This document shows, piece after piece, positions 9,189 through 64,000 of a stretch of 64,000 nt of DNA. A program made the translations under genes and the position numbers. The stretch is from the NCBI RefSeq assembly GCF_029227915.1, contig NC_079878.1, positions 21,727,501 to 21,791,500 of the forward strand. Reading direction: 5' to 3'. Within the stretch, counting starts at the first letter, position 1. Each line of letters opens with the position of its first letter. Below the pieces are notes generated by a model that saw only the letters and a list, made by a program, of their open reading frames with translations, had not been told where the DNA came from and did not search any database. The stretch comes from Hydractinia symbiolongicarpus. Its lineage: Eukaryota; Cnidaria; Hydrozoa; Anthoathecata; Hydractiniidae.

Positions 9189-9410
9189 AACGCACGTACC
9201 ACTTAATTAACAAGGGCACTCATGAACATAAAGAAAATGTGTGGGTTTCACAAGGTGGAAGTGGCTTTTACAAAAGTAACGTCTTTTTCCGCCTAAAAAA
9301 ATAAGTTTTTCCTCTTACATATACAATGGTCAAGTTGGAGCAAAAAAGGCCAAAAATGGTAAATATATTGTCATAAGGTGTAAAAGTGATGTAGATAAAC
9401 TCGTCTGATA

Positions 9411-11721
9411 ATGGCTGATAAAAACAAATGTCCAAAATGTAGGAAAAAGGTAGGTGAAAATCAAAATTCTGTATGTTGCGACAGCTGCGATTTTTGGTTT
9501 CACCTTCGCTGTAGCGGTGTCTCTCTAAAGGAATTCAAAAAATTAAGTAGCGATCAAAATAGTATTTTCTCTTGTAACTTTTGTGCAAATAGCAAGTGTG
9601 GTAAGTGCTCTCAACCAGTATTTAATCATCATAATGCGCTGCGCTGTGATGGTCTGGGGTGTAACACTTGGTATCATCTTAAATGTTCTAAAGTCTCTTT
9701 ACATTCTTACAATATTCTTAAAACAAAAATGGGTAGTGATCCTTGGCACTGCTTCAAATGCTATGTTTTCCCATTCTCTCACTTATCACAAGATTTATTC
9801 ACAGACAACCAACAACCACTGACTGAGAAATATAGTGATACTTGTACCATGTGTCGGAAAAAGGTTAAAAGTAACAATGTTAGTAACTCTCCAGCATGTA
9901 GTATTTGTAAATGTTTTATTCATAGAAAATGCTCAGGAATACCTATCGCTGAGATAAATAGTCTTCCAAAAAACTACTTTAAAGATTGGAGATGCTTGTG
10001 TTGTAGTGAAAACATATTTCCATTTGTAAATGAATCTTCTGAAAATCTTCTAAAAATGAGTTTTAACTCAATGTATAATTGCCCATGCCAACAAAGAGAT
10101 ATTGAGGTTGTGGACAGAAGGTACCTTTTTGAATTTGATATAACTCAAAATAAGTATGGTCCAGATCCAGATAATCTAATCAACAAAACTTTCACTCCTA
10201 ATGTACACTCTAAATATTATGATACTCATGAATTTCATAAGCTGAAAACTGAAACACACAAAAATAAGTGTTTCTCTGCAATGCATACAAACATAGAGTC
10301 TCTCATGCACAATTTTGATTCTTTACATAGCCTTTTAAGTGACCTTGATCATAATTTTGATGTGATAGCAGTTTCAGAAACTTGGAACTCTAAAGCTAGA
10401 AAATCCACTTTCAGACCAGGTATTCTTGATGGATATCATGAATATGTTGGACAAGTAGGAAATTCATTGAAAGGAGGGTGTGGAATGTACATAAAAGAAA
10501 ATATTAAGTTTAAGGAGCGTAATGATTTAAGTGTTTCTTTTATTGATGAAAATAATGAGTACCAATCAAAATGGATTGAAATTATTAATAATAAAAGTGC
10601 AAATATTTTAACTGCTGTTTTTTATAGGCACCCTAAAAAGTCATCAGACGTAAGCTTTACTAACCATATTGAAAACACCTTACAAAAATTAAAAAAAGAA
10701 CATAAAAACATAATCTTGCTTGGGGATTTCAATTACTGTCTTTTAAATTATGAAACAAATAAGGAAATATGGAGATTTGTGGAGTGTTTATATGATCATT
10801 TTTTGCAACCATTTATAACACAACCAACTCGTACTATTTTAGGTGCCAAACCCAGCTTGATTGACAATATCTTCACTAATATAGTAGATAAGGATATATC
10901 CAGTGGAAATCTCATTAGTAAAATCACTGACCACATGCCTAACTTTATTTTTGTACAAAACCTTGTCAATATGACTCAAAATCATAAAATTACAAAAAGA
11001 GACTTCTCCAAATTCAATGAGGCAAGTTATCTAGAAGAGATTCAAACTATTACAGTAGAACATGTCATTCACCTGAATGACATAGACACGATATATAAAG
11101 ATTTTCAGGAACAACTAATCTCAGTCATCAACAAACATGCACCTCTGAAGACATATTCTAAAAGGGAAAGTAAGTGGATGAGAAAGCCTTGGCTCACAAA
11201 GGGGATACAAAGGTCACTTAGGACTAAAAATGTATTGTATAAAAAATACTTGAAAGATAAAAGTCAAATTTATTTCTTAAGGTATAAATATTATTGTAAA
11301 CATCTAAAACAACTGATCAAAACTTCAAAAGCAAAGAATATTTCTCTGTGCATTTAAACAACTCTAAAAAAGTTTGGAAGGGAGTCAATGAAATCATTAA
11401 CAAAAGGAAAAAAATAGGAGTGGGTAACATATTCCTCAGTGAAAATGATTCTATTGTTACTGATCAGAAAAAAGTTGCCAATATGTTTAATGAATTTTAT
11501 GGAAGTGTCGCCAAAAAACTTGTTGAAAAACTTCCTAAACCAAACACACAATTTCAAGACTATCTAAAAAATCCTAACAAACACAGTATTTTTTTGACAG
11601 AAGTAGATCCAGGTGAAGTTTATTTACTACTCTGCAAGTTAGACTCCAAAAAGGCAGCTGATATTTATGGTATCTCACCAAAATTTTTAAAAATCGGTGC
11701 GCCTGCAATCAGCAGTCCTAT
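9411..11721 (+). pseudogene. CR1/L2-like LINE, 5' part: PHD-like fingers and endonuclease
   Basis: ORF 9411-11357 (648 codons) opens with cysteine-rich PHD-like fingers (CPKCRKKVGENQNSVCCDSC, CDGLGCNTWYHLKC, CTMCRKKV ... CSICKCFIHRKC; residues about 8-200). An APE-type endonuclease follows at about 290-520 (MHTNIESLM, DVIAVSETW, LLGDFNYCL, ITDHMPNF). Such an enzyme nicks target DNA to prime reverse transcription. The frame slips near 11335. 11348-11721 then continues into the start of reverse transcriptase (SKKAADIYGISPKFLKIGAP) and is cut at AT 11720-11721 by the ISL2EU transposon. It resumes at 15892. Confidence 0.87.
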
Positions 11722-11738
11722 ACACCTATTTAACATTA
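11722..11738 (+). repeat. Left terminal inverted repeat of ISL2EU copy 1
   Basis: ACACCTATTTAACATTA; the same 17 bases start the reverse complement of the right end (15875-15891) and the third ISL2EU copy at 56507. A second shared block (GAAAACGAAGTATAAACA) occurs further in on both sides. Confidence 0.88.
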
Positions 11739-11880
11739 TGCGATTACGTAATCCCGGCCGGGAGTCTCGGTACCATTTGGGGGTGCCGCTAAGATTCAGT
11801 ACACTTGAGAAAACGAAGTATAAACATCGCGCTATAGCTATCAAATTATTTACCAACTTTTTAAAACATTTAAAACAAAC

Positions 11881-13599
11881 ATGGATTACGATTTAATATC
11901 AAAAATGTCTGTCGAAGAGTTGAAGAACTACTTGAGAGTTAGAAATTTAAGGATAAGTGGAAGAAAGGAAGAACTAATTGCTCGAGTGTTTTCAGCAGCT
12001 GAGAACTTCGTCCAGCCTGTGAAAACTGCTCAAGAAGTAGAGAGTAATTTAAAAGAGGAGTATCAGAAGAAGCTGAAAATAAACGATAGAACACTTCCAG
12101 ATCCTTTTAAAATACCTCACGGTTGGATGGATGAGCAAGAAGGAATAAAGTTTTGGCCCATGGTGTTGTATCCTGACATCTTTAGCTACCTTATGTTTTA
12201 TCCATCAGAACTAGGTAGTTCAGATTTAAATGACTACAAAAACTCAAAGGCATATAGCTATTATAAATCTGGATGGCTTCAACCTCTCGCCTATCATGAT
12301 TTATCGGGAAGTAATTTTTGCATTTTTAAAGGTACATGCAGAAAGTCGCAAGCGATTAACGATCCTTTCCATAAACTATGGTTAATTCTGGAAAAAAGTG
12401 GTAAGATAATGTCGTGCCATTGTACATGCATGGCTGGAATGAGCCAGACATGTAATCATGTTGCGGCTGCTTTATATCGCATTGAAGCTGCTGTCAGAAT
12501 TGGACTTACAAATACAGCTTGTACAAGCACCGCTAACGAGTGGCTTCCTAACAGAAAGCAAGTAGCTCCAACTAAAATTAAAGACTTGAATTTTAGCAGA
12601 GATAACTTTTCAGACAGAGGAAAGAGAAAGCGCCCTTTAGTATCGACACCTAAAAAGAACTTTGATCCTCTTCAACATTGTGGCGAGAAATTACTTTCTC
12701 TTAACGAAATAGCAGACGAATTAAAAGAAATTATTCCTGAAAGTATTTTATTTACTGCTGTACCAAAACCAGAAATTGACTTTGTTAGAGAGTGTTTAAG
12801 TATTTCTGATGTAACTCAACCATCAGACATATACAGTATAAGTGACATACTTGCAATGTCAAAAACAAAAACTGAATTTGAATGCAATCTAGTGGCATAT
12901 GTAACACCCGAGAAAGTTATTCATATTGAAAAATTAACCCAAGGACAAAGTGAGAATACTGGTTGGTATAATTTTAGAAAGCATGTAATCTCTGCCTCAA
13001 AAGGCCATGAAGTTTTAACAAAAATGAAAAAAGTTAAATCAGGAGGTGGAGGATCCGGTAATATCTGGGCATTAAACCAGAAAGTTTCAGGCATGTCATT
13101 TATTAGCCCTAATATACCAGCACTAAAATATGGTCGTACAATGGAAATAAATGCTGTTAATGCATTTAAAGACAACTTCTTACAAGGGCATAAAAATGTG
13201 AAGGTTTTAGAGTGTGGCTTGTATTTAGATAAAAACACACCTTACATTGGTGCAAGCCCAGACAGAATAATAACATGTGATTGTTGTCTGCCAGCATGTT
13301 TAGAAGTAAAATGTCCTTTTTCGATTAATTACACGACGCCAAAGGATTTAAACGTAAAACTACCCTACTTGACGCACATGGAAGAAAAAACAGTATTGAA
13401 CAAAAACCACAAATATTACACACAATGTGTTATGCAAATGGGAGTAACTGGCTTTTCCCAATGTCATTTTGTAGTTTGGACACCTCATGGGATGGTGCAC
13501 GACATTATAAACTTTGAGCCTGAAGTGTGGAATTCTATGAGAAAAACTTTTATAGAATATTACGACACATTTTATTTAAAATCCATATTTTCAGGATGA
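11881..13599 (+). CDS. SAP-SWIM-YqaJ nuclease of ISL2EU
   Basis: 572-codon open frame. Residues 1-45 form a SAP DNA-binding motif (MSVEELKNYLRVRNLRISGR). Residues about 178-195 are a SWIM zinc finger (CHCTCMAGMSQTCNHVAA). From about 355 a YqaJ-like PD-(D/E)xK nuclease follows: GWYNFRKHVISASKG, ALKYGRTMEINAVNAF, GASPDRII (Asp), CLEVKCPF (Glu-x-Lys) and YYTQCVMQMGV (Gln). The family is known from phage recombination exonucleases, and in ISL2EU it accompanies the transposase; its exact role in transposition is unproven. The ATG at 11881 lies about 160 bp inside the left terminus and no earlier in-frame Met is plausible. All key nuclease residues appear kept. Confidence 0.9.
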   Translation: MDYDLISKMSVEELKNYLRVRNLRISGRKEELIARVFSAAENFVQPVKTAQEVESNLKEEYQKKLKINDRTLPDPFKIPHGWMDEQEGIKFWPMVLYPDIFSYLMFYPSELGSSDLNDYKNSKAYSYYKSGWLQPLAYHDLSGSNFCIFKGTCRKSQAINDPFHKLWLILEKSGKIMSCHCTCMAGMSQTCNHVAAALYRIEAAVRIGLTNTACTSTANEWLPNRKQVAPTKIKDLNFSRDNFSDRGKRKRPLVSTPKKNFDPLQHCGEKLLSLNEIADELKEIIPESILFTAVPKPEIDFVRECLSISDVTQPSDIYSISDILAMSKTKTEFECNLVAYVTPEKVIHIEKLTQGQSENTGWYNFRKHVISASKGHEVLTKMKKVKSGGGGSGNIWALNQKVSGMSFISPNIPALKYGRTMEINAVNAFKDNFLQGHKNVKVLECGLYLDKNTPYIGASPDRIITCDCCLPACLEVKCPFSINYTTPKDLNVKLPYLTHMEEKTVLNKNHKYYTQCVMQMGVTGFSQCHFVVWTPHGMVHDIINFEPEVWNSMRKTFIEYYDTFYLKSIFSG

Positions 13600-14120
13600 T
13601 TTATTTTATGCATAAGCTATCGAAAATTATTTTTGTATATATTTGTCTGTTTAGAAATAAAAGTTTGAAGAGCATATTTATCTTTCTTTGATTTGAACGT
13701 GCTTTACAAATACATTTCAACCAATTTTTTTAAATGCCATCTGTAGCCTGATGTTTCTGCGTTAAAATGACCATGTGTCTTCTAATCAAAATATTCCCTT
13801 AAGAAAAGTATTTGGCATAGGCTACCTCTCATTTAGGCATTAAGTACATACAGTATTTTTTTATATTTCTTTAAACGTTCCATGAGGTATTCTGATAAAT
13901 TTTTGTGTGGCCTCGATTTTCCGACACTTACGGCCATTAACTTTAACTATTTCAAGTAGGTAGGCGAGCCCGAAATATTAGAATGAGTGCGCATGTAAAC
14001 AAAGGGAGATACGAGTAGATAACAATAATTAAAAAAACAGAATAACTCAGACAACTTTTTTTGGTAAAAATATTTACAAAACAAGCAAAAAATGTGAAAA
14101 AAGAAAATTTACAAAAGTGT

Positions 14121-15704
14121 TCAAGTAGTTTTTTCTGGTTTCTTTTTAATTAATACAGGCTTTAGGTTACATAATGCAGCACAGCATTTAACTATATGAT
14201 CTGCATGTTGTAACATTGTAACAGGCAACACTCCCTTGAGTATGCGGTAAAACTTAATTCTGTTAATTGCTCGCTCAACATGAATCCTTAAATTTGCTAC
14301 ATCTTTAGTTTTTTTACATTCAGCACTTGTCATCTGACTTTTTACACGTGCACCTGGTGGAACAACTAATTTGCAAAAACGTAACATTAATTCTTCTCTG
14401 ATTTGAAATCCACGATCTGCCATAACTTTATCATCCCTTTCTAACAAATCGTAAAATCCAGAGTCATTTGTAATAAATTTATCAGACGCGCGCCCACCAT
14501 AACAATCAGATAAAATAGTTATATATCCAGAAGGGCTTATACCAACAAGAAATTTTAAAGTATTGTGATGTTTATAGTCTGACCAAGTAGATGCTTGATT
14601 TGTTAAGGATTTTGGTCTGTCAATGAACACCTCAGCACAATCAATTATAACCCGACATTTGGAATAACCTGCTTTGGCAAATGTTTTAGGCAAGTTATCA
14701 CGAATGGCTTCTCTTGGCAGCCAGACAACAAGTGCATCACCAAAAACTCTACTTATAATTCTAATCCAAGTTACAAATACTTTGGAACATGTTGATGGTG
14801 ATATTCCAAAACGATCTGCAAGGTCCTCTGTCAGTAAGCCCAAACGAAGTTTCATCAAAACTAACAAAAACTTATCACGCTGTGTTAACTTTTTCACATG
14901 TTTAGTTTGACGCTTTATTTTAGTACTTAAACATGCTCGTTTTGACCCCCTCCAATAATTCACTTGCTGTAAGTAAGGCTTTAATAACAATAACAGAGTG
15001 TTAAATAACATGATAGAAGATAGACCAGTGTAATAATTCATTTTGGAATCACTTTTAATGATTCTCCAAGTCATTGTTGTATTTTTAACAATTTCAAAGG
15101 CTTTGCCTCTATACTTCTTCACTTGTACAGTTAAGGAGTTCACTTTACTGACCAAAGATTTGATCATTTCGCTCTTGTCTTTGCATGATTCACATGTAGG
15201 CGGTGAAGAAATAGTGTAAGAGTGGTCTGGTATTGTCGGTGAAAATAATCCTGATGCGTCAGAAATATTTGAGCAACAAGGTTCCTCTTCTTGGGCTTCA
15301 TTGCTGGGAACATCTTCTGAATCAAGAGATGACTTTTCCAGAGAATGTCGAAATAGTTCCCTCCTAGGTTTTTTAGTAACAGGAGTGTCGTACCCCAATT
15401 CTAGTGTTCGGTCTGGATACTTTTGGGAAGGTGTTCCATCAACAAAATGAACAGAGCATACCCTGTCACTTTTTTTTGGTACCCAATCACTTTTATCTGG
15501 GTTAATTCTTCTCATAGCTTTTATCCAACGCTGTCTCTGTTCGTTATTTTTAAGGACGCTTGGAAAGCAATACAAACTAAACGGTCGCTGACATGAACAT
15601 TCTTCATGGTTAACTTCGTGAATTTCACATCGTTCTTTCTTCCATTTTCGCAGCTTCTTAGTGCTATTAAAACAGCCAATAACAGCACAGTTTACACTTG
15701 GCAT
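14121..15704 (-). CDS. THAP-DDE transposase of ISL2EU
   Basis: I start the protein at ATG 15704 (MPSVNCAVIGC), because THAP domains begin at the N-terminus; the frame is open 78 bases further upstream. It is 527 codons long. Residues 1-100 are a THAP C2CH finger (C-x-C pair after MPSVNC, then RWIKAMRR, VCSVHF). A helix-turn-helix follows (LRLGLLTEDLADRFGISPST). The DDE_Tnp_4 core has VIIDCAEVF (first Asp), SDCYGGRASDKF, RDDKVMADRGF (second Asp) and HVERAINRIKFYRIL (Glu). The gene is open and convergent with the YqaJ gene. It binds its own ends and cuts and pastes the element; related copies lie at 4027, 36240/40827 and 56700. Confidence 0.92.
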   Translation of the reverse strand: MPSVNCAVIGCFNSTKKLRKWKKERCEIHEVNHEECSCQRPFSLYCFPSVLKNNEQRQRWIKAMRRINPDKSDWVPKKSDRVCSVHFVDGTPSQKYPDRTLELGYDTPVTKKPRRELFRHSLEKSSLDSEDVPSNEAQEEEPCCSNISDASGLFSPTIPDHSYTISSPPTCESCKDKSEMIKSLVSKVNSLTVQVKKYRGKAFEIVKNTTMTWRIIKSDSKMNYYTGLSSIMLFNTLLLLLKPYLQQVNYWRGSKRACLSTKIKRQTKHVKKLTQRDKFLLVLMKLRLGLLTEDLADRFGISPSTCSKVFVTWIRIISRVFGDALVVWLPREAIRDNLPKTFAKAGYSKCRVIIDCAEVFIDRPKSLTNQASTWSDYKHHNTLKFLVGISPSGYITILSDCYGGRASDKFITNDSGFYDLLERDDKVMADRGFQIREELMLRFCKLVVPPGARVKSQMTSAECKKTKDVANLRIHVERAINRIKFYRILKGVLPVTMLQHADHIVKCCAALCNLKPVLIKKKPEKTT

Positions 15705-15893
15705 GATAAATAATTCTTGAAATAAAAGATTTTGTGCAGATAGATAAATGTAAGCGTGTTGTTTATACTTCGTTTTCATCAAGTTTAACTAAGAAGAACA
15801 CAAGGAAGATTTTATCAGGCACCCCTTCTTAGAACCCAGTTCCCTTCCCTAGCGCGGAATAATAATGGCGCGCGTAATGTTAAATAGGTGTAT

Positions 15894-17377
15894 TGCTCAA
15901 ATTATAAATAAGTCTTTTGAGCTGGGGAAATATCCATCGTTATTGAAAACAGCAAAAGTAATCCCCGTACACAAAAGAGATTCAAAACTGGATGTCTCTA
16001 ATTATAGGCCAATCTCCTTACTCCCTGTAGTAAGTAAGATCTTTGAAAAGGTTATGTTTGATCGTCTATACAACTTTGTAACCAAAATAAATCTTTTACA
16101 CAGTAAGCAATATGGATTCCAAAAAAATAAGTCAACAGCAAGCCATTTTAGATCTTCAGGCAAATATTGTGGAAAGACTGGAAAAGGGAGAGATACCATG
16201 TGCTATCTTTTTAGACTTTGCTAAAGCTTTTGATACTGTTAACCATCGTATACTTATTCAAAAACTAAATTTTTATGGTGTTAGAGGCCTAGCACTAGAT
16301 TGGTTTTCCTCATACATTACAAATCGCACTCAATGTGTATCAGTGAAAAACAGCAATTCACACTTCATAAATATAGAGAATGGAGTCCCTCAAGGCAGTG
16401 TACTAGGTCCACTTCTTTTCTTACTCTACATAAATGACATTGTCACAGCTTCTCCAGTTCTTCAATTTTATTTATTTGCAGATGACACCAGTATATTGTT
16501 CTCGCATAAAAACAGACAAACACTTGAAAAAGTCTTAAATCTTGAACTATCTAAATTATCTGATTGGCTGACTGCAAACAAACTAAGTCTCAATGTTAAG
16601 AAGTCAAGTGTACTCATTTTCCGTCCTAAAAATGCCAATACACTTCTTGATTCTAAAATCTATATTAATGGTCTACAAATTGAGGAGAAGGAACACAGTA
16701 AATATCTTGGCATAATTATTGATAATAAGTTAACTTTTTCCCAACAAATTGCTAACATCAAACTAAAACTAATGAAAGGTAATTGTTTACTTGCAAAGTT
16801 GAGACACTTTGTCCCTGAAGGTCTACTGAGAAATCTATACAATGCGCAAATTCAACCTTTCATTGATTATGGTTCTCTAATTTGGAGCACAGCGTCACAA
16901 GGTTATCTGAATGTTCTATCAAAATCTATCAATAAAAGTGTTCGGATCATTAATTTTTTTTACGAACCGGTAAGTCCTTTATTTGTAAAAACCAAAATAA
17001 TTCCCCTTGATCTCAACATTGAAATGGCCGTAGGTAAATTCTTTTGGAAACTGAAAAATGAACAATTACCAAAAACTATGGAAGACATATTTAAAAATCA
17101 CAATGTATTGCCTAGCCCCTATCACCCGACACGTTTGATTCCTCCATTCAAGAGAACTGAAGTAGGACAAAAATTCATCACGTATAGTGGAGTGAGAGTG
17201 TGGAATAAAAATCCTGAAAATATAATTAAGTCATCCTCCCTTAATATTTTTAAAAAATTCCTACAGAAATCATCTTATTTCGACACTGCAATAAGTGGAA
17301 CTATTTTCTGTCAAGTAAACACTATATCAACCTCCAATAATGTTCTTTATATCTCCTTTTCTTTTAAATTATATTGA
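15894..17377 (+). pseudogene. CR1/L2-like LINE, 3' part: reverse transcriptase
   Basis: Continues the LINE interrupted at 11721. 15894-16130 gives KTAKVIPVHKRD, VSNYRPISLLPVVSKIFEKV and QYGFQKNKST. One frameshift near 16140 passes to the frame of 16112-17377: FLDFAKAFDTVNH, ENGVPQGSVLGPLLFLLYIN, YLFADDTSILF (catalytic FADD), LTANKLSLNVKKS and KYLGIIID. The thumb and C-terminal part follow to the stop at 17377. The order matches APE-type LINEs of the CR1/L2/Jockey group. Two frameshifts and the 4.2 kb insertion make it dead. Confidence 0.9.
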
Positions 17378-18121: not shown

Positions 18122-21100
18122 ATGAGCTCAAAGAAACCGATGAAACTCGTTCTATCTCCAGCTAAAAAAAGTAAGCAAGAAGTGAAATGTATTATACACA
18201 ACAACAATTACAAGAAAAAAACTAAGTTAAGAGCATTCACAGAAAAATCAGCCGAAAAAGTGAAAATAGCAAGGTATGTTGCAAGTTTGATTATATTGTT
18301 TTATTTTTTAATTTATGGTTTTCATGACTTTATTGTAACAGCGCTATACTTCCGTTTTTTATAGTGAAATTCGAAATGATGAAAATGTCACTGATTTAGT
18401 GAGCGGCGATCTTTCCAATTTGAAATTTCATCAGAAATGTTTAGATGCGTATGTCCACCCAAAAACATTAGCTACCATACAAAAGAAAAAAGAAAAAGCT
18501 GAAGCAAGCGACGATGAAACGGGAGATGTTAACGACATAGAAGAACAACAACCAACTTCAACTATCCGAATGTCACAGAGAAAGAGAGGCAGAACAGGTA
18601 AATATTTATCTTAATTTTATAATTTTATGTTGTAATCGTGCACAAACAGGCTATTCTGACTTTTATATTTCTTGTGACTTTTCTAATGTCTGACTGATCT
18701 TATTTAAGGTCAATCACTTGCCAAGCAAGATGAGTGCTGTATATGCCAAAAAAGAAAAACGAGTACAACAGGTAGTGGCTACGAAAAACTCAGCAAGTGT
18801 ATAACGGAAAGTTCTGCTCTCACGCTACAGACTGCAGCCCTACAAAATGGGGCAAATGATGAGTTGATAGGATATATTTCTGGTCGCGATTGAACGGGAA
18901 TAGTTGCACTTGAATTGCGATATCATGTAACATGCTATCGCGCTTTCACCAAGCCCGTTAAAACACCTTCTGCAATCACTCAAGTAGACAAAGAGGCATT
19001 GCAGCATACTTTCGACTTTGTTGAGCTACATGCTCTAAATAAATGCGAAGTGCTACTACTGAAGGATTTGGTTGACATTTATAACAAGCATTCCGTAAAG
19101 GGCGGTATCACCGATCGAACTATGTTGAAATATGTTACGGAACAATTCACCGATGATATCGGAGTTTGGCAACCTCGGTATGGAGGGACATTTATTTTTT
19201 CTGAAAAAATACCTAAGGGGCTTATAATTGATGTACGGCGACGGAATCTTATTGATCGTGAAAGCCAAAAGCAACGTGATACTGACATTGAAATTATCAA
19301 AATAGCAGCTGAAATAATAAGAGAAGAGATCAGAAACATGCCGTTCACATATCCTATTTGGCCACCGACAGAAAGAAGCATACTATCCGAAAGTACTATC
19401 ATTCCACCAAAGTTAAATCAATTAATTACATCTATTGTGAGCTCGATACCTCAACTTTACAAACGGAAACAGACAACTATAACTTCGATATGTCAGGACA
19501 TTATATATAGCGCTTCAAATACTAAGCACAAAACTTCAAAACATGTATTATTATCGCTTTGTACAAAAAGAAAAACGGGCTCGAAAGATTTGGTTAAATG
19601 GTTGAACAGATTTGGACATTGCATATCATATGACGAAACTGCATACCTGGAAACATTTTTAGCCAACGAAGAAATAAAAAATCAAATGGTGAAGTTTTAT
19701 GTACCCTACTCCGTACAACCATCATCATTCATAACATTTGTTTGGGATAACAATGATATAAACCCGGAAACTTTAAGTGGAACGTCGATGCATTGTACCA
19801 ATGGCATAATAGTTCAATTGAGAAGAGATGATATGGTTGATTTTGATAGCGAACGCATAAATTACGCAAAGCCACCAAGAAGAAGATCGTTCAAATATAT
19901 ACCTGATCAGCTGGAAGAGTACACTACCAAGAAAAGGTGAGTTTCAAAATAAGTATGTAGCAAACTAACAAATGATCAAATTGACGTTATAACGACATTT
20001 GTAACGGTGTTTATGTGGTCATTATATAAATAACAACAGTTACGACATTTTTTAGATTCAACCCTATTTCAATGAAAAATGTTCGTCTTGACTCTATCGA
20101 AGATCATTTATCAACTTCCGCTTGTATCGAGTCCATATGGGCCTTGTTACGCTTTCAAGCGAAACAAAATAATGTTCCACAGTCAATACCTGCATGGACC
20201 AGCTTCAACTATTTGCTTGATGGTGAAGTCACACATCAAACTCATGAAATATCGTATTTACCAGCGATTAATGATTCTCCTACTAAGATGGATGTAGTTA
20301 TGGAGCTTCTGGTTCAATCGAAAGTAAAAGCTGAAGCATTAGGATTGCTAGAAACAGACGTTGTTCTAGATCAAGCTATATATGCTAAAGCCGTAGAAAT
20401 TCTTCAAGATCCTGCCAATGTGGAGCTAAAAACTTTCATTTCACTGAGGATGGGAGCATTTCACACTTCGTGTATTTTCATAGCTGTAATTGGTAAGCGG
20501 TTCGCCGATGGTGGTTTGCGTGACTTGATTATTGAATCTAACATATTGGGTGAGTGTTCCTTTGTTTATATAAGTCCCATGAATTTGAGAGAAGTGTGAA
20601 CCCTGCCTACTACCGAGAAATACGTGAGTCCTGTTCTTAATGAAATGGAGTTTCTTGCTTTTAGGTACACGTTCTGTGGAGAGAACTTTGAATGGAAAGC
20701 ATTACAACCATGCCATATGCACGTTGAAGTACGTTTATGAAGCGCTTTATCGCTTAAAAATTGAACATTTTGAACACTGGTTAGTACAGCATGGTAAAAA
20801 TCTCAATGACTACATTTTAACGGAGGAGTTCCAAACTTGCTTAAAAGAGGTACAAATATTTAGCTTCTTTTGTTTCTTTGGGCCTTTTTTGACTTTTTAG
20901 AGCAGCATGTTTTCAGATGATTATTCCTTTTACTGTTCAGGTTTCATTTCAATCTTTCCAAGATGTGACTGGCCTTGAAGGTCTGTTTGAACTGATGGAA
21001 AAGTACGAACGTGATATTAAACAAGCAGGTAAAACAGCATTGTATTGGTTGTCTTTCATGGAGATGATGGACGTGTTGTTTGGATTTATACGAGGTTTAA

Positions 21101-23443
21101 AAATTGGTAACTGGGAATTGCACCTAGACGCAACACGCCAAATGCTGCCATGGTTTTTTGCATACGACCGTCCCAATTATTCCCGCTATTGTACATTCTA
21201 TGTCATGGAGATGCTGCGCTTGCCAGAAACACATCCCGGAATATGTGAGGAATTCACGTAAGTCTGATATTTCGTAATGCGTTGGCGACTTGTGGTTTAA
21301 ACATGTAGCTTTTTGAGAAAATTTATTAAAACTCTTTAGTAACGGAAATTTTGCGGTTAGAAGATCTCCTGGAAAATTCAATAAAGTTCCCAGTGACCAA
21401 TGCATAGAGCAAACCATTAACAGAGAACAAAAATGTCATGGTGGAATAACTGGATACAGCACTTCTCCTGGGACTATACAAAGATGGGTATTTACTAGCC
21501 ACACTATTGCAAAATGTATAAGTATCCTCGAAGACATGCTGACAATCAAACAAAAAATGTCACATCCCAAAGAATTAGGTAAATCCAGAATGGAATTCGA
21601 CGAAGCTTCTGTTCAGAGATGCTACGACACTTTGGTCTCTTGGGGAAGCCCATTTAACAGCCGAGACAGCCTTGTTCAAATTTGTTCTGGTGTGGAAGCT
21701 ACCACAGTCGTCGAGAAAAACTTACTGGAAGCCCATTCTGTTGGAAAAAAAGAGATGGAAGAATTTGTTGAAAAAAGAATCAAGTCAAATGAAATTTCCT
21801 TCTATGATCGAATTAAAAAAAACCATCTCAAAACGTTTAAGGATGTCGCAGTGAAGAAGGTGTGTAAGGTAAAAGAGAAGAACATTACGATCGCTGCAGA
21901 ACGAAGTGTGTTTGCAAAGTTGTTAATCATTGCACAAAACCGCAATAATATTTCGATGAAGGAAGTCTTGAGTTACCCTTTGAGTCCAATTCCTTGGGCT
22001 CTTGCTCTTCCAGATGGGGGGCTTGTGAAAACAGTCAAGTCTAAGTTGTTGGCGAAAATAGAAGAGGGTATTGACCCAGAAGAATCCTTACCCACGAATT
22101 GTTGTACGATTTTTGATGGAATGGTTTTGCTGCAGCAATTGGATGGTATTCCACTCCTCACATTCGGGGATATATCAGAGTTTCTTTTAAAGAGAATCTT
22201 GCGGTGTAAGTCTCAAATCATCTACTTCGTTACTGACCAGTACTTCCAGAATTCTGTGAAAGGCTATGAGAGAAGCAGACGTACCGCAGATGGAACACTC
22301 CGAGTACGCATCGAACGAAGAGATCAAAAGAAGCCATCTCAGTTGAAGAAGTACATGCGCAACGACGAAAACAAAAAAGAAATCACTCAGTTTTTATTAA
22401 ACGACTGGTCCAATGAAAGTCGATTTGTAGGTCTACTAGATCGTCGTGAAATTTACTTCAATTGTTTGTCAAAATTTTTCAAAATATATGTCTTCAACGG
22501 TCGTGTATGTTGTGAAGAAGAATCGTCCTTAGAAAACCACCAAGAAGAGGCAGACACCAAGGTATTTCTCTGTTGCAACCACGCAAGCGTGACTGGCGTT
22601 GATAATGCATGCATCGTAACCGTGGACAGTGACATTGTCATATATGCTGTACATTTTGAAAATAAAATTGGAATCAACATTTATCTACAGATCGGTTCGG
22701 GTGGACGGAAACGAATCTTAAGTGTGACCAAAATTCGAGATGCTGTTGGTCCCGCAATTGCAGAGGCTCTTCCAGCTTTCCATGCTTTTACAGGTAATGA
22801 CTTCACAAGTGCATTTCACGGCATAGGGAAAGTGAAGCCATACAACTTATTGAAAGCTAACGAAATATTTCAAAATGTGTTTGCCAAGCTAGGTAAATCT
22901 GCGACATTTGATGTTGACCTCTTTCCACACATTGAGCAATTTGTTTGCAAATTATATGGAGTCAGTGCAACTAACACAGATGACGCACGCTACAAAAAGT
23001 TCTGTTCGTGTAAACCTACACCTGAGCCGCAACAGCTTCCTCCAACTCGAGATGCACTACTAAATCATTGTAAAAGAGTTTCATATATCACAGCGATAGT
23101 TCGAAATTCTTTGGTTGCAAATCCAAACCTACCAAGCCCAAATGGACATGGATGGAATGTCAACGGTGAGAAACTAGAGATCATTTGGCTATTAAGACGA
23201 CCTGCACAAGATGCTCTATTGGAAATGGTTTCTTGCTCTTGCCGTAAGTCATCATCTTACGCCAAAGAAACTTGTGTTTGTAGCTCGTACGATTTGCCTT
23301 GCACAGATTTATGCTCCTGTAACTGTGTTGATCAAGGATCAGACAACGACGAGATAATTCTCGAAAATGATGTTGAAGTCGATAGTTCTGATGACGAAAG
23401 TGAGGATGACACAGAAGATGAAGAAACTTTATTTTCAGATTAA
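18122..23443 (+). pseudogene. Academ-like transposon protein with XPG-like nuclease, one stop codon
   Basis: Seven exons with GT/AG borders: 18122-18273, 18365-18597, 18709-19936, 20056-20549, 20665-20849, 20941-21257, 21340-23443. They join in phase to 1,571 codons, with one in-frame TGA at 18891 (GRD-stop-TGI). Exon 3 has a zinc-like CCICQKRK motif near its start. The last exon holds an XPG/FEN-like region: HQEEADTKVFLCC, IVTVDSDIVIYAV, then HAFTGNDFTSAFHGIGK, like the helix-hairpin-helix of flap nucleases. A Cys-rich tail follows (CSCRKSS ... CVCSSYDLPCTDLCSCNC) and an acidic end. The family is common in cnidarian genomes. The role as transposase/nuclease is inferred; the stop could be a mutation or an allele. 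Confidence 0.72.
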
Positions 23444-30748: not shown

Positions 30749-33680
30749 TTAAAATTTTAGTCTTCTGTTATCAATGGAAAATTTATTTATAACTTCATTT
30801 ATATCAACGTTTATTTCTTTATGGATGTGGAGAAGAGCTAAGCCATTTAGTCTATCGTTAGACATAGTACTGCGGTTATAATTTTTTAATCGTCGTAGTG
30901 CAGAAAAGGACCTTTCACATTCACATGAGGTGACTGGTAATGTGCCTAAAATTCTTAGGGCCACAGTTATATTTTCAAAGCCAGGAAAATGAATTAATTT
31001 AAGTGTAGAGGAAACATTATCTGGTGCATCAAATTTGTACGAAGTCCAATATTCTTCCCACAAGTCCATTTCAGCTTCAATAGCTAAAGAATTAGGCATG
31101 TCTTCTTCGTAAAACTGAACAAAATTTCTGAAGTTATCCTTCCAAGATTTTTGGTGATGGTGATGGTAAAGAAGAGAAATCATGTTGGATGGAATTACTG
31201 CAAGACCAGCATAAGCTGCTAAGGAACTAGGTTCAAATCGTTTACTAAGTTCAGTGCTTAGGTGATCTAGAATTGGAATTGTTAAGCTGCGCAGGTAGTA
31301 ACTAGATATAGTATCAGCTGATACATTACTTCTATGTACCTGCCGAGAACAAACTCTAGGTCTATTTTCTTGCACACGGACTGTAGACGCTAGGGAAACA
31401 GCCTCTTTGTACCAATTGTTGTGATAATCATTTGCAGAAGCTCTTATAGTTAAGGACATATTTTTAAGACTTTGTATAAGATGCAAGCTCGATAAAAGGT
31501 CAATAGTTTTTCCTTGTAAAATCTTTGTAACTGGCAACAATAAGTCCATTACTGACCGTGTTACAACTAGTAAAACAATAAAATCAAAATTAGTAACAAG
31601 ATGCAGAAGGGAGGTAGCTTTTGTAGAAGTATCACGGTTACATTTCTTATCAAGATTCATACTCATGTCCTCCAAAGTGTATACAATTGCAACAAATAAT
31701 TCCTGAAAAATATCTAAGCCAATTATCCGTTCAATCCATCTAATCCGACAAACATCAATTAACTTTTTCTTTTTAGCTTCAGGACAATGTCGTAAAATAT
31801 TTGCCTCTAGGAGCTGTTGCCTAACTTGAGACAGGTTGAAAAAATAGGACAATTCCTTTACTCTTTCTAGGGTATTTTTAACAGATTGGATGGAGCATGA
31901 GCCACAAACACTTAAATTTAAACGATGGCTGTGACAGTGAGTGTATATAGCCTTCCTATTTATTCTTAAAATGTGAGCTGACAGTCCATTTATATGTCCA
32001 GAAACAGACCCTGCCCCATCATATCCTTGCCCACGACAATTTAAAATATCCAAAGATAAATCTTTGGAAACACATTTTAGCAGAACTGAGGCTAAATCTT
32101 TTCCTGCTAACCCTTCCTCACAATAAATATATCTTATAAAATCCTCCCTAATATCACAACTGCTGTCCACAAAACGTAAAACCAGAGACATTTGTTCCTT
32201 ATTAGAACAATCAGCTGCCTCATCTGCAATTATGGAAAAAAACTTATTTCTTTTAACCTCGTTGACAATAGTGTCAGATATCACTGAACCACAACATGAT
32301 ATCAAAGCATTTTTAAACGTTTTCGAGATGTATGTAGCATTCTTACTGGCAGATTGTAAATGTTCTTTTAATACATTGTCTCCTGCACGTACCCTAAAGT
32401 TTAAAAGTTTACGAAAATTTCCAGCCCCCCCTTGCGAGTATTCCCCTATTTTTGGTTGTGAATCAGGACCATCTCTGTGGCCACGCAAAGCTATGCCAAT
32501 TCGCCCACACAAAATAATTGTATCAATGATTGGAATCAGTTTTTGCCTGTTATCGTTAATACTTTTCTGTAAATTTTGGTCAATCAATGTGTCAATTGAT
32601 GGCCTTGCCCCAGACATATTATCAATAAGAGAATTGAAGAGAAGAGAAGTATTTACATGTAAACCCTGCTTAGACGAACAATGACGTTTAAAAGAAGGTA
32701 CTGCATTTGGCCAATGTTTTTGAGGTTCAGAAAAAAGTTTGGTGACCTTATAAGATTTACTGGGAAATCTGTCTCCAAATAGGACACAAGGAAGACAAAA
32801 TGCACCATCCATAGTAGGCGAATATGCCAGCCATGAAAAATCAGAAAGCCATACTGAAATTTCCTGTTACTGACAGGGAAATTGTAAGTGTTATCTGGAA
32901 TGAATAAATTTGTAATAAGTTTACGAATATCACTTTCCTTTAATTTAGCAACTTTTTTTCGAAAAGATCCAACATCATTTTCACAAACATAAACCATTTC
33001 AGGTTCTGTACTATCAACAGTGGAACAATTTTTGGAAATTGTGCTAATACTGGAAGTTATAGCAGGTGATTCATATGTTTTAACTATAGGTTTTGTTAAG
33101 AAATTAAGTTTTGTCTGTAATTTACCACCTACACACATATTACCGTCAGTAAAAATACTTTTTTAGGAAAACATAATTTAAGTGATTGATCAGTCTTTCG
33201 TTTTAAAGAAGAATGAACGAGAGGCACGAAATGGTTGGACTGAAATTTTGAAGATAACATAAGGCCTTCATAACAAAACATTATGTGTAGATCAGCCTTC
33301 ATTGAAACATGCTTACGGGGAATTATTTTTTGGTTCATACAAACCTTAAACTTTTCCTCTCCAATATCAGGGTAATATGAGAATATAATTCTCCCTGTAA
33401 CTGAGGACAAAGCTAAAAGGCAAAGGAAACTTGACCAGTTTTTGTCATTTAAATTTAAGACAGCTTTCTCTTTTATAAGCTCTTCCCCCTCTTTATTGCT
33501 GTCACAAGCAACATGGGAAACACAGAAAAATAGAATATTTTTCAGAGAACTGAAAGAACCTCTCTGCTCTTGAAAGATGGAAGAAAATAGAGGATGATTG
33601 GAATAAAAATTTGGGAAGAGAAAAAGTTCCAACGATACCAGAAGTCGTAGCAAGTCCACCAACATATTGTTACTTCCCAA
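30749..33680 (-). pseudogene. hAT transposase (DUF4371 type) with vertnin/OTU-like N-terminal region
   Basis: ORF 32812-30749 (687 codons) carries a TTF-type zinc start (DGAFCLPCVLFGD), then DUF4371 (FFSIIADEAADCSNKEQMSL, GQGYDGAGSVSG, THCHSHRLNL) and the C-terminal hAT dimerisation domain (TLPVTSCECERSFSALRRLK). Upstream, 33138-32653 supplies the preceding zinc part after a 1-base slip near 32860. 33680-33129 reads LLALSSVTGRIIFSYYPDIG and FQSNHFVPLV, a pattern I associate with vertnin/OTU-like regions. An exon at 34203-33973 ending in a GTAACT donor may be the start. Two frame changes, so this copy is probably inactive. The protein would mobilise the hAT that encloses it. Confidence 0.82.
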
Positions 33681-56506: not shown

Positions 56507-57492
56507 ACACCTATTTAACATTACGTGCGCCATTATTATTCCGCGCTGGGGAAGGGAACTGGGTTCTAAGAAGGGGTCCTTATGTTCTTCTTAGTTAAAC
56601 TTGATGAAAACGAAGTATAAACAACACGCTTACATTTATGTATCTGCACAAAATCTTTTATTTCAAGAATTATTTATCATGTTAACCATAAAGAATGTTC
56701 ATGTCATTGTATTGCTTTCCAAGCGTCCTTAGAAATAAAGAACAGAGGCAGCGTTGAATAAAAGGTATGAGAAGAATTAACCCAGATAAAGTGATTGGGT
56801 ACCAAAACAAAGATACTCTGTTCATTTTGTTGATGGAACACCTTCCCAAAAGTATCCAGACCCAACACTAGAATACTAGAACACTAGAAGGGGTACGATA
56901 CTCCTGTTACTAAAAAACCTAGAAAAGAACTATTTCGACATTCTCTGGAAAAGTTTCTCTTGTTTCATAAAATTTTCCCAGCAGCGAAGCCCAAGAAGAG
57001 GAACCTTGTTGCTCAAATATTTCTGACTCATCAGGATTTTTTTCACCTACAAAACCACATCACTCTTACACTATTTCTCTACTGCCTACATGTGAATCAT
57101 GTAAAGGACAAGAGCAAAATGATTAAATCTATGGTCAGTAAAGTGGACTCCTTAACTGTACAAGTAAAGAAGTACAGAGGCAAAGCCTTTGAAATTGTTA
57201 AAAAAATACAACAATGACTTGGAGAATCATTAAAAGTGATTCCAAAATAAATTATTGCACTGGTCCATCTTCTATCATGTTATGTAACACTCTGTTATTG
57301 TTATGAAAGCCTTACTTACAGCAAATGAATTATTGGAGGGGGTCAAAACGATCATGTTTAAGTACTAAAATAATACCGTAAAACTAAACATGCGAAAAAG
57401 TTAACACAGCGGGATGAGTTTTTGTTTGGGCTTACTGACAGAGGACCTTGCAGATCGTTTTGGAATATCACCATCAACATGTTCCACAGTAT
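56507..57492 (+). mobile_element. ISL2EU DNA transposon (copy 3), right part missing
   Basis: Starts with ACACCTATTTAACATTA after AT (56505-56506), identical to the termini of copy 1. It follows the transposase-side end of copy 1 closely: CGCCATTATTATTCCGCGCT, AAGAAGGGGT, AACTTGATGAAAACGAAGTA. Frames at 56700-57480 are decayed pieces of the THAP-DDE gene (for example MIKSMVSKVDSLTVQVKKYR at 57119, and GLLTEDLADRFGISPSTCS at 57427-57485). The sequence then runs into (ATT)n exactly inside the helix-turn-helix; the rest is gone. Oriented opposite to copy 1. Confidence 0.83.
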
Positions 57493-57901
<409 letters not shown>

Positions 57902-57944
57902 CCACGGCTGTTTCAGAGCGGAAACTAAGACTGCGCATGCGTCA
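57902..57944 (+). repeat. Left terminal inverted repeat of the RAG1-like transposon
   Basis: CACGGCTGTTTCAG, then AGCGGAAACTAAGACTGCGC and ATG(C)GTCAA. The right end matches in two blocks, separated there by 12 extra bases: 14 bp perfect, then CGGAAACT(A/C)AGACTGCGC plus ATG. Confidence 0.93.
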
Positions 57945-58730
57945 ATAATTACGGCCACGTTGAGGCGCAAGATGGCGGGCGCAAATAAAAACAATCATGA
58001 TAAATAAGTAACTAACTTTTTGAAATCGCTTTTGCATGATAGAATCTATTTCAGTGGATTTAATTTAGTTTTTTAAAGCATTTCAACACGCTGGAAGCTA
58101 AATCTTTCTTTTACCTTTGCGACAAGCATGCTGTTGGAGTAATACTGTGGCAGTTTTGAAGGCATACTTTTTTTTGTTAAAATTAACATGGCAACTTGTT
58201 CCAACTAATTTTTGGTTTTGTGGACGTTGCGAAGTTATGTGGCTGGTGTATTATATATTTTTGGAAAGCTGAAAGGCTCATCTACAAGGTAAGAAAAACG
58301 AAAAAACTGTATCAGTACTTCTGAAAGAATGCTAGAGCGCTGAATTCTGGCAATAAAAGTTAGTGTAAAACCTGAAAATTTTAACTCCCTCTTTGACATA
58401 ATCTACTGTATGATTTATTGTAGGCATTAAAACTGTTGTAGTTTACTAAGCTAATATTTCACAGAATAACAACACTAAACAACATTCTATATAAACAATT
58501 CTGTAACTCTAAATAAGGTTTCTGCGTCTCATACACTACTAACGTAAGCTCGACAAAAAGTCAAATAAAAATGAACTATGCATGTAGTAAGCTAATTAAC
58601 TGTTCAATTCTTTTTCTTTCTAGACCAGCTGATCCACCTTTGAAATAATGCAAAGACTAAAGGAGCTTGCAAAGTAATGCTAATATGCAGTTAAAGATAT
58701 AACTAGCTATCTAAGCTGTAAGTCTAAAAG

Positions 58731-61700
58731 TTATTCTTCACGTGCAATTTTTCTTTTTTTAATTTTTGGTTTTAATTGGCTCGATTCAGGATTTACATTA
58801 ACAAAATGTTGCTTTAATGTATTTCGTAACCGCTCCACTGGGTTTTTGATGCAGCTGTACCTGCTCGACATCCTGTTGATTTCATGATGCAAGCTTTCTC
58901 CACCTTAAAAATGTTATAATTTGACATTTAAGCTAGCTAGCTACACATTTTCTGAAAAATAACACATTTTGGTAAAAAACACAAATTTTGGTGTTACCAG
59001 GTTACAAATTTAAGTGGCTGTTTACCTTGTTCGCCATAAAACCCAAATCCAACATTCCATTTTGCTATGAACTCAGTGACATGATCTTCAAGCATATGCA
59101 GTTTTGGTGAAATATTAACTTTTGGCCAGTTAGTTCGCAGATGCATCATGAATTTATTAATTGAAATTTCTAGAATTATGTACTATATGTATATTATTCT
59201 TTCTTTTTGTTTTGTTTTTGGCACATGAAATTTTAAAAAAAACTTATTTATTATTAAAAAAAGGAACAAGTTTCTCACCTAAAGCCAGTATTTCCTCACA
59301 TGACAGATATTTTGCCGAATTGTAAATGTTATGAACTTCTGCAAAGTAAGTAAATAACATGTCGTACTTATCCATTTCTAAATTCACACTGTGAATAAGC
59401 TGGTCATCATGCTTTTGTGCTGCAACAATCTCTTTAATGCTGGATGTTAAATTTTGGATGTTTTCTTTCTATAAGAGCAAGATTGTTTTTTTAATTTTCT
59501 TTAAATATGTTATTTTTAAATTGCTACATTATTGTTAGTATTAACAAACCTTTAGCAATTTATGTACATGGTTGCCGATAAAACTTTGGCCATGGTAGGC
59601 CTGACGTTCAACACCCATTTTTTGCAGCGTTTTATCTATTGAAGAAGCACAAGGACCAACACCTAAAATAAGATGAACAAACTATTAAACATAGCTTTAG
59701 ATTGGAGAGAATATAAGGCTTGCATCATAAGATCAGAATGAAAATTATAATTTTGGAAAGTTTTTTTTCGGGAATTAAATTTCTTGGAATTTCCAGACAA
59801 AAAAACATTTGCGAATATCACAAAAAATTACTTAGGTAATAAAAATGATCATACCCACTAAAATTCTTTTGTTGTTTCCCAAGGTTGAGATTTCTAATTC
59901 TAATTCTGTGATTTTCTTCTCAGTTTTTATTATACTTTTCTCGTACGTCAGTATATTTCGTTGTAAGCCACCAGATATTACAAGCCAGTTTAACTGATCT
60001 TGCTGGTTTGCTAATTTGGCTTTTTCATCTTCCAGCTTTTGCTGCAAGTCATTTGTTTCTTTAAGGACTTCGATGTAGTCACCATAATCTGAATCCAGTT
60101 CATTGTCTTCTGTTGCCAACAGCAGAGCTATTTTTACATCATAGTCTTGGCAAGAAGACTCAAACATTTTAAACATCTTTTGATATACACCCAAGGAAAT
60201 ATGAAGACCAGGAATACAGACCTAAAATTAGGTGTTTATATAGATTTTATTTTGGGATTATTAAATCAACTTGCAGTGGAAAAGCATAAAAATATGATGT
60301 ATACTTGATCAATAGGTATGTCAAAAAATATGTTGTCAATGACATTATAAAATTCTTTCGCATTTTTAGGGCTCCCACCACTTTCACGGAAATCTGCTAA
60401 ATTTTCTTCAAGTGTCGCCAGTGACCTTTTCTTAAATTTCTTGCGAGTAAACACTGGGATGTTCATTAGTTTTGAGGTAATGTTGCAAAACAAACAGCTG
60501 TGACGCCCTAAACACAAATGTTAAAGTATACATATTTTATTAGAAACTTTTAAAAATAAACCATTTTTAACTATGCATTTCCCATATCTGCGTAGTAAAA
60601 ACCCATTGTTAAACTACAGGAACTTTATGAAGTTGCAAAAAAAGTTCTGTAAAAATTAATTAATTTTGATTATCAACTAGCAACTTGCCCCAGATCTTAA
60701 GTAATTAATATTTACCATTTGCACCAGTTATACCATACATTGCACACAGAAATTCGTAGTCGCCATACATAAATACACGGAATATCGACTCTTTATATTT
60801 GACTTGTTGCAGCATTTTTATTTGTGGTCAAAAATTAATTAATTTTGATTATCAACTAGCAACTTGCCCCAGATCTTAAGTAATTAATATTTACCATTTG
60901 CACCAGTTATACCATACATTGCACACAGAAATTCGTAGTCGCCATACATAAATACACGGAATATCGACTCTTTATATTTGACTTGTTGCAGCATTTTTAT
61001 TTGTGGTCGAAACCGTTCAAGGCAGACTCTTAAGTTTGTTCTTGTGTCTTTCCCTAATTTAAAAAAAAAATATAAAAAATGTTTTGATTTCTACTTTAGA
61101 TCACTTAGATCATTTCTACTTTAGATCACAATTAGACATCACATGCATAGAATTTTGGAAATTCCAGTTTTAATTTTTTTTTTTTCATATTTGTAATATA
61201 TTGCATTAATGTTTGTTACCTTCAAAAATGCTAAACATTATTGTGTTTTCCTTCTTGTTTGGGTTTAGAACATTGCCTATTTGATATGCCATTTTAAAAC
61301 TATTTCCTCCATGGTCTCCACCAATTTTAACATGGATCTCATTGTCAGGAATGAAACTATGTTTTACAAGTAAATTGTGACATTCTAGCTTTTTGAGTTG
61401 ATACAGAATGTGGCCAACTACATTATACAGATACCCCCAGGGCCTAGGTATAACGGATACCCTGTTTCCAACTGATAATTTGGTGAGAGGAGCCAGCTCA
61501 ACTCTCAGTCCTTGGCCTACCCATTCAGCAGCGACACTTCTTGCTTTTTTTTCTGATTCAATTTTTATGTTGAATGTTTTCAACCAACGTGATATTTCAC
61601 GTAGTTGATTCCATGGCATGTTTAAATTTGATTTCATTGCTGTGATGTGATTGGCTGGAATAATGACTTCTGTACCCAAATTTTTAATGATAGTATTTCT

Positions 61701-63375
61701 GTCACTTTCTTCCATAGACTTTAGCAGTGCTGTGGTCTGTTTTGTGACAGATTGGGTTTCTTCACCAGACATCAGATGGATTAACTCCTTGGCTGTATTT
61801 GCTCTTTTCCGCACATTCCTTTCACATGTTTCATCAGAAGACTTGCGAGGAATTCTAATGGGTGTTATTGTCAATGGCTAAAATATGGAACATATGTTAT
61901 TAATTTGTTTTATGTAAAATGTAATATTACTATTAAAATTATCATATTGTTACAGACAATTATGTGTACATTATTTTTAATATAACATAGCATAGTTTTG
62001 TATTTTTGTATAAAGTAGTTATACACATTTTTTATATAAGATCACTTAACGATGTAGACGCCTTAGCATTTAGGGTGGGCACATCAAAATTTTAGTAAAT
62101 CTCCTAATATATAGAATGGTTTTTATTGACCCCCAAAACTTCCTATATTCTGTGACCCCTCTAGCCACTTACTTATATTTATTATTATTTTTAATTATTT
62201 ACTCTGAACATTTTAAAATTTGTCTTGTTCTTATTATGGCTTGTTTTTTGTATAAAAAATGTGTATAAGAAACATTTCACTGGAATTGTAAAAAAATGAT
62301 AACCTAGGTATGCACATATATAGACATATACAAAAGCAACTTATTTTCAGTTTTGATTTCAGCCTTAAAATTGCTAAGATCAAAATTTTTTGCTTTATCA
62401 GCCGTTTGAAAATCAGTTGCTTGTTAAAAAAAGTCAATGTCAAATCACTTTTACTGAGTCCACTCCATACATAAGTAATCTTACTTGTGAACTTCCACTG
62501 GGCAATTGGACAGTTTTATTCGGCAAGTTTGACTGCTGCATTTTTATTCCAACCACATGAGCAATGCATTCTTCTACCTTTTTCGGTACAGGCTTGGAAG
62601 GGCTCAACTGCATCATCTCTAGTGTTGTAAATGACAATGCTGGAGAGCATGTGTGCGATTGTGCAGACAGCAGTTTAAATGAACAACCACATGTTCCCTT
62701 GACAACTCGTGTGTTTAAAATCCTGGAAATGCACAAACCAGGCGAGACATCCCCGGGTGTTGTTGGGATGCTGCAGGTGGGACATCTATTTGAATTTTCC
62801 AACCAATTTGTTAAACACAAGGCACAAAACACGTGGTTACATTGGTTTATCATTAATGGCCTTTTTAAAATATTGCTACACAAAGCACAAATCAGATGTT
62901 CCCAGTTGCCTTCACTGATATTTATGTCTGAGAGAACGTTTCCACTATAGTCAAAAAGTTCAGAGGTTTTTCTGTAAATTTTATTAAGTTCTAGGGGTGT
63001 CCAAGTTTTTTCTGCGGAATCCACAGCTTTGTGTGTTGGGTTACCACCGCCCCTTCTTTTCATAGGTTTGCCACCTCTCTTTTTTTGTGCACTTAATATG
63101 CATGTTTTGCACTCGGTGTCTTTATGTGTATACCATTTAACAGGCACAATAGCGGTAGCTGAGTCACGTTTTAGGACATTACTTATTGTAGCAAAGCACG
63201 AGTGACAGAATTTTTTTGGGTGAATGCCTGCCCGATCAGAATAAAAATCAGCTCTGAAAATACTGTCCAAGTTCTTTATGTGCTCTTGGACAATATGTGA
63301 TCGTCCAGGCAGAGTGTTTCCACATATTCGACACAGCTTGTTCAACCGAGCTAGGTGTAAATCCCCAGTAGCCAT
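58731..63375 (-). CDS. RAG1-like transposase with RAG1-type zinc region and RING finger
   Basis: Nine exons (minus): 63375-62485, 61877-61220, 61053-60895, 60507-60305, 60221-59855, 59662-59550, 59468-59279, 59169-59026, 58903-58731; all GT/AG, all in phase, 965 residues and no stop. Exon 1 holds the RAG1 N-terminal zinc region (CRICG at 15-19, IHPKKFCHSC at 51-60, CKTC at 89-92) and a RING finger (163-201). The core keeps, in RAG1 order, Asp485 (GGDHGG), Asp555 (YGDYE), Cys574-x2-Cys577, His885-x4-His890 and Glu907 (YGEQGGES). The Asp555-to-Cys distance (19) equals mouse RAG1 (708 to 727). I start at MATGDLH; an upstream in-frame leader lacks support. It should cut and join its own termini; RAG1 is the closest well-known relative. 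Confidence 0.9.
60651..61008 (+). repeat. 179 bp tandem duplication across an exon-intron border
   Basis: 60651-60829 and 60830-61008 look identical. Each copy contains the last about 113 bases of exon 3 of the RAG1-like gene, its GTAAAT donor and the start of the intron. Only the copy at 60830 is joined to the real exon start with its acceptor (61053). The extra copy has a donor but no acceptor, so it can be spliced out with the intron. Confidence 0.93.
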
Positions 63376-63804
63376 CTTGAACTTTAACAAAAATTTTGAA
63401 AAAAAAGTACCTAATGTTTGATACAATATCAATTCGTAATGTACTGATACACCTACAGTTCTTTTTTTATTCGTATCTCGTAACTATCTTGGAATGATTT
63501 TTATAAAAATTATCTGTGGGATAACTTCGTATCTGAAAATATTTTGCTTTAAGTTGGCATGGTGTCCACAGTCTTCAAAATGGAGGTTGAAAGTTTTTGT
63601 TTTGTTTTAGCTAGGCAACAAGCGAATAGCTTTGTATTTGAATTAATCTTATTGGTATAGGACTATATTTTATTTAAACCACTTAGTTTCCAGTCCTTAA
63701 GTTGGTTTATGTGATTAAAATGCCTATTAAACCTGGTGCTAGCTACCCTAAAATTTGTTTACTTTTAAGCGCAACTCGCCCCAGTCCTTATTTTAAATTT
63801 TTTT

Positions 63805-63855
63805 TTGACATGCGCAGTCTGAGTTTCCGAAATCTCGCTAGCTGAAACAGCCGTG
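63805..63855 (-). repeat. Right terminal inverted repeat of the RAG1-like transposon
   Basis: Reverse complement reads CACGGCTGTTTCAG, CTAGCGAGATTT, then CGGAAACTCAGACTGCGC and ATG-TCAA. AAAC follows at 63856-63859. Confidence 0.93.
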
Positions 63856-64000
63856 AAACAAGCCACTTTTTTACATGACTATTTTTACGTTTGGACAAAA
63901 TTTTTGCTAAAAATCTTTTTGTATCATAACAGCAGTGTAAAAAACCTCCTTAGCTGTCACTTTTAAAGGTGTTTCCACCCAACCGGTGTCAAGAAATTTC
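63856..64000. other. Right flank of the RAG1-like transposon
   Basis: Begins with the second AAAC (63856-63859). The remaining DNA to the window edge has no coding signal. Confidence 0.6.

Follow-up and report, generated by a model that had tools for sequence, protein, structure and literature searches.

How did RAG1 gain its N-terminal half, and how did the 12/23 rule arise? Both are open questions, and both are raised by a locus in Hydractinia symbiolongicarpus, an animal kept in laboratories. The window, a 64,000-nucleotide stretch of its genome (NCBI RefSeq GCF_029227915.1, contig NC_079878.1, positions 21,727,501 to 21,791,500 of the forward strand), contains a whole transposon whose minus-strand gene encodes a 965-residue protein with the domain order of RAG1. 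We consider it probable (roughly 85%) that we have here a Chapaev-type cut-and-paste DNA transposon, autonomous and with very recent activity, with a transposase of RAG1 architecture and bipartite, unequal ends.

The element, its copies and its transposase

The element is bounded by an exact inverted 14-mer, CACGGCTGTTTCAG, which has just these two sites in the window, with no third at up to two mismatches. AAAC flanks both sides, as a first-pass annotation of this DNA had claimed together with the matching termini. That annotation placed the start at 57902; because AAAC occupies 57899-57902, the element begins one base later, at 57903. A (TTA)n array at about 57490-57700 adjoins its left end.

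The first-pass reading depended on further genomic copies with the same ends, and these exist: the 14-mer has 80 exact sites in the 481-Mb genome (76 contigs), against none for the reversed control pattern. From these sites we took 28 facing terminus pairs, 27 of which carry a perfect 4-bp duplication (L026 has none). The target sites are varied across 26 insertions, a set that excludes L026 and L029; the 8 flanking bases on each side are shared by L028 and L029, which were counted as one insertion. Twenty-three pairs were long enough for a test of the gene (five were skipped), and the full frame with all splice sites is intact in 19, or in 18 if L028 and L029 are treated as a single insertion. 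L031 has a 12-base in-frame loss, and the gene is broken in L012, L021 and L035. Among 18 near-full copies, the median difference is 2 and the maximum 13 bases over 5,774, with zero substitutions in 15 of 153 comparisons. The ratio of nonsynonymous to synonymous substitution rates (stop codons and gapped codons left out) was 0.22 against the 90%-identical L035, 0.49 against L022 and 0.28 against L045 (147 codons), and on this basis the protein was under selection before these three copies decayed. Three short copies, L026, L032 and L033 (3,475, 287 and 960 bp), have the same termini, resemble the window element near the ends only (71-83%) and look non-autonomous.

Nine minus-strand exons, from 63375 to 58731, join into 965 codons and a stop, and all eight introns are GT-AG, in agreement with the first gene model. 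The domains proposed for the protein, a RAG1 N-terminal zinc region and a RING finger ahead of a DDE core, are supported by Pfam, RAG1 and profile matches. The match to RAG1 spans residues 38-229 (E 4e-11), for the zinc region the family profile matches RAG1 chain 21wb_A (E 6e-14), and the core matches PF06918 (DUF1280; E 4e-15), with the motifs D485, D555, C574-x2-C577, LH644, H885-x4-H890 and E907/E911. Like that of RAG1, the core is predicted to adopt an RNase H-like DDE fold whose zinc insertion is split, and among solved structures the fold modelled for a relative is nearest to RAG1, RAGL and Transib. The exon 2 region aligns with NBD-like helices in the predicted model of a relative. The likeness of the core to RAG1 is one of predicted fold and motif spacing; hhalign gave nothing significant for sequence homology between them, and the fold comparison of exon 1 had no RAG1 chain among the 50 matches listed. 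P0015 (99% identical) was considered as transcript evidence for splicing and dropped, because it continues into intron 1.

Judged by its duplication, termini, motifs and core, the element is a Chapaev, and the Chapaev-like setting first proposed for it stands. A duplication of 3-4 bp is described as a Chapaev hallmark (PMC4079192); besides the 4-bp duplications of the window's own family, hereafter family A, we found AGGA in L039 of family B and TGGA and TGAA in family C. The termini read 5'-CAC ... GTG-3', the DDE core is of the DUF1280 type with C(2)C, LH and H(4)H motifs, and the RAG1-type zinc region is followed by the RING finger. Chapaev elements in which a DDE core from this superfamily is preceded by a zinc (Chapa) region and a RING finger are already known (Kapitonov and Koonin 2015, PMC4411706), and the element is a well-preserved family of that kind, with RAG1 domain order on a DDE core. 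The relevant passages of that paper describe no end spacing; here, a hydroid family offers intact, near-identical copies. The Chapaev3 elements Merrow, Garfield and Conan are reported (PMC4079192) to share the CAC...GTG termini and the C2C, LH and H4H motifs but to have 3-bp TWA duplications, against 4 bp at varied sites here. N-RAG-TP of Aplysia, as described in papers citing Panchin and Moroz (2008), is a transposon whose protein is like the N-terminal part of RAG1, a likeness that we take from the description only. Relatives are less scarce than the first-pass annotation held: a first search returned seven proteins, a second eight more, and the genome holds several further families, with matches at C8:28539709, C2:28353264 and C14:22780322 among them. 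Not all of the relatives have the zinc region or RING. A tree of 15 rows, built from this family's relatives only (no RAG1, ProtoRAG or Transib), did not settle the exact sister of the window element, and four pattern matches to relatives in viral contigs gave none that was confirmed.

Bipartite ends with unequal spacing

Behind each terminal 14-mer lies a second block, and the two blocks form a 21-bp subterminal inverted repeat that the first-pass annotation had missed. Its consensus is CGGAAACT[A/C]AGACTGCGCATG, and it stands 2 nt behind the 14-mer at the left end (gene 3' side) and 12 nt behind it at the right end (gene 5' side). The two blocks agree at 20 of 21 positions, whereas the best of 2000 shuffles gave 16 matches. 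Of the 28 pairs, 27 are of the 2/12 type, and L022 pairs a 2-nt end with an end of neither type. The 24 single ends comprise ten of the 12-nt type, seven of the 2-nt type, five that are like family B (at most two mismatches) and two unclassified, and none of the 80 exact termini carries the family A block at a spacing other than 2 or 12. Both spacer lengths are kept in a subfamily whose end pieces are 71-83% identical, while the spacer letters have changed.

Two other families show a similar shift. Family B is represented by L039 (5,397 bp; 23-30% protein identity to the window protein in matched pieces), in which the block CGCGAACAAAA lies at 14 and 25, and by L044, whose right terminus is damaged and whose block CGCGGACAAAA also lies at 14 and 25. 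The second block of family B (CGCGRACAAAA) differs from that of family A. Family C, the LOC130613560 family, has two copies of 4,549 bp, is 58% identical to the window protein over residues 298-570 and has 15 exon copies at 99%; its zinc region was matched, with no RING match. Here GGAATCTAAG lies at 17 and GGAATTTAAG at 27. Taking the shift from the best subterminal match between an element's two ends, with significance from 1000 shuffles, we obtained 10 in A, 10 in A2, 11 in two B copies and 10 in C; the observed score was reached by 0 (A), 7 (A2), 0 and 3 (B copies) and 102 (C) shuffles. In A, B and C alike, the far block is at the 5' end of the gene. That a shift of one turn is common to three families, together with a RAG1-like architecture, is the surprising part. 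Noted at L061/L064 (C1:8351873-8356421), family C is annotated as the host locus LOC130613560 and counts as a second family of Chapaev elements that gave no RING match.

We also noted that CAAGATGGC, at 57968-57976 in the left end, is the reverse complement of the conserved TR5 element of ProtoRAG, GCCATCTTG (PMC8289069). It also looks like a YY1 site. AAAATGGC occurs in both ends of L039, and AATGGCGGCC in the left end of L064. These TR5-like letters in the ends of A, B and C may be due to chance.

What the unequal ends may mean

We regard the unequal spacing as the most interesting feature of the element, and what we say of its function is a proposal. From the fold and signature we infer a mechanism for the transposase, in which the zinc region, RING and NBD-like helical part precede the RNase H-like DDE core with its split zinc insertion. 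Most likely, a transposase dimer would bring the two ends together, cut next to CAC and join the element to a target cut with a stagger of 4 bp. In each end, the terminal block would serve cleavage and the second block binding. Because the second block lies deeper by one helical turn at the gene 5' end, the enzyme would prefer to pair one short-spacer end with one long-spacer end. A tentative extension, which we hold less likely than not, is that Chapaev transposases follow their own spacer rule: the second block would sit at about +16 in one end and about +26/27 in the other, and an NBD-like domain reading it would allow pairing between unlike ends only. If true, RAG1-architecture transposases in general would share the 12/23 logic of V(D)J recombination, which would predate the RAG lineage or have arisen in parallel with it.

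The strongest alternative, itself somewhat doubtful, is that the spacing is not a feature of the transposase: the second block would be a host promoter or factor site, moved by a chance ancestral insertion and inherited since. The copies are indeed related by descent, one block lies directly upstream of the gene, and its core GCGCATGCG looks like an NRF1 site. The family C block is also weak by itself, because so many shuffles reach its score; it lies at the position seen in family A. A host site does not readily account for a second block at both ends, including the gene 3' end, for a different block with a like shift in family B, or for a 12-nt spacer whose length is kept in the 71-83%-identical subfamily while its letters vary.

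Membership of the direct RAG1 lineage, as a RAG-like (RAGL/ProtoRAG) or Transib transposon, is very unlikely. The RAG1 N-terminal region and RING are present, and the nearest solved folds are those named above, but the length of the duplications, the termini and the family to which the core belongs speak against this reading. RAGL duplications are given as 5 bp (PMC7204232) and here they are 4 bp; the termini are CACGGCT, not the CACTATG heptamer described for ProtoRAG (PMC8289069); and the core is DUF1280, assigned to Chapaev. In limited frame scans no RAG2-like partner was seen: none appeared among minus-strand frames (at least 25 residues; Pfam-scanned within exons only), and the 10 plus-strand frames scanned, out of 98 of at least 20 residues (the longest 129), had no Pfam match; short exons could be missed. 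A domesticated, immobile host gene derived from Chapaev, for which an intact nine-exon gene under purifying selection might speak, is refuted by the 19 intact scattered copies (18 with L028 and L029 as one), which have duplications of their own and almost no divergence.

Unequal bipartite ends are reported for recombination signal sequences and for ProtoRAG of lancelets, the latter with spacers of 27 and 31 bp (PMC8289069). ProtoRAG is like the present element in its CAC termini, bipartite asymmetric ends and RAG1-fold transposase, and is described as differing in working with RAG2L, in its 5-bp duplications and in its other blocks and spacing (PMC8289069, PMC7204232). Invertebrate RAGL transposases are expected to be rather insensitive to asymmetry (PMC7204232). 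The likeness to vertebrate RAG1 and its 12/23 signals would lie in the domain order, the modelled core fold of a relative and bipartite signals whose spacing differs by about one helical turn, the shift being 11 bp in the 12/23 signals (PMC7204232) and 10-11 bp here. Vertebrate RAG1 is a recombinase working with RAG2; the frame scans of the present element showed no RAG2-like gene, and its core has diverged strongly. A literature search that left much (Repbase, subscription papers) outside its scope found no report of unequal ends in Chapaev, or of Hydractinia with RAG1, which is weak evidence of absence. Outside the Transib/RAGL lineage, the family combines many intact, near-identical copies with RAG1 domain order and bipartite ends of unequal spacing, and lets the role of the spacer difference be tested in a RAG1-architecture enzyme with apparently no RAG2.

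Feature coordinates and other observations

Table 1. Coordinates of the transposon and its parts, numbered from the first letter of the window.
Feature	Positions	Strand	Basis
Whole transposon, 5,953 bp	57903..63855	- (gene)	termini, duplications, exon joins, paired copies
Left target-site duplication, AAAC	57899..57902	.	sequence; perfect 4-bp duplication in 27/28 paired copies
Left terminal block, CACGGCTGTTTCAG, gene 3' side	57903..57916	+	
Short spacer, 2 nt	57917..57918	.	length 2 in 28/28 paired copies
Second end block, left, CGGAAACTAAGACTGCGCATG	57919..57939	+	
Exon 9 (E911, C-terminus, stop)	58731..58903	-	
Exon 8 (H885-x4-H890, E907)	59026..59169	-	
Exon 7	59279..59468	-	
Exon 6	59550..59662	-	
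Exon 5 (LH motif)	59855..60221	-	
Exon 4	60305..60507	-	
Second copy of 179-bp unit (exon 3 part, donor, intron start)	60651..60829	-	
First copy of 179-bp unit	60830..61008	-	
Exon 3, residues 517-569	60895..61053	-	exon join
Predicted catalytic D555	60938-60940	-	within exon 3
Exon 2, residues 298-516, start of DUF1280 core	61220..61877	-	
Predicted catalytic D485 (GGDHGG)	61314..61316	-	invariant in 8/8 aligned rows
Exon 1, residues 1-297, RAG1-type zinc region and RING	62485..63375	-	
RING finger, residues 163-201	62773..62889	-	PF13923, E 2e-11
RAG1 N-terminal zinc ('Chapa') region, residues 11-103	63067..63345	-	PF12560, residues 38-103, E 7e-6; profile match
Second end block, right, CGGAAACTCAGACTGCGCATG	63809..63829	-	20/21 identical to left block
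Long spacer, 12 nt	63830..63841	.	length 12 in 27/28 paired copies
Right terminal block, CACGGCTGTTTCAG, gene 5' side	63842..63855	-	
Right target-site duplication, AAAC	63856..63859	.	sequence

The gene contains a perfect 179-bp tandem duplication, not mentioned in the first-pass annotation, whose unit takes in the greater part of exon 3 together with its donor and the beginning of the next intron. Splicing from the first donor would drop the extra units, and the protein need not change. Two units are present in 15 of the 28 pairs, one in five and three in two, with no exact unit in six; an assembly artefact is unlikely as the source, since the number varies between copies. Within an otherwise near-uniform family, the exon unit grows and shrinks between one, two and three copies, L028 and L029 being noted in this respect.

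The rest of the window is dense in transposons. At 9399-17377 there may be a retroelement into which other elements have inserted: between a PHD and endonuclease frame and a reverse transcriptase frame lie a THAP/DDE transposase at 14121-15788 and, at 11824-13599, a SAP-YqaJ exonuclease frame. Long open frames of 348 and 708 residues, at 18894-19940 and 21317-23443, have no Pfam match at E 0.001. Transposase frames of the hAT (DUF4371) and TNP-like RNase H types lie at 30749-32866 and 433-1446.
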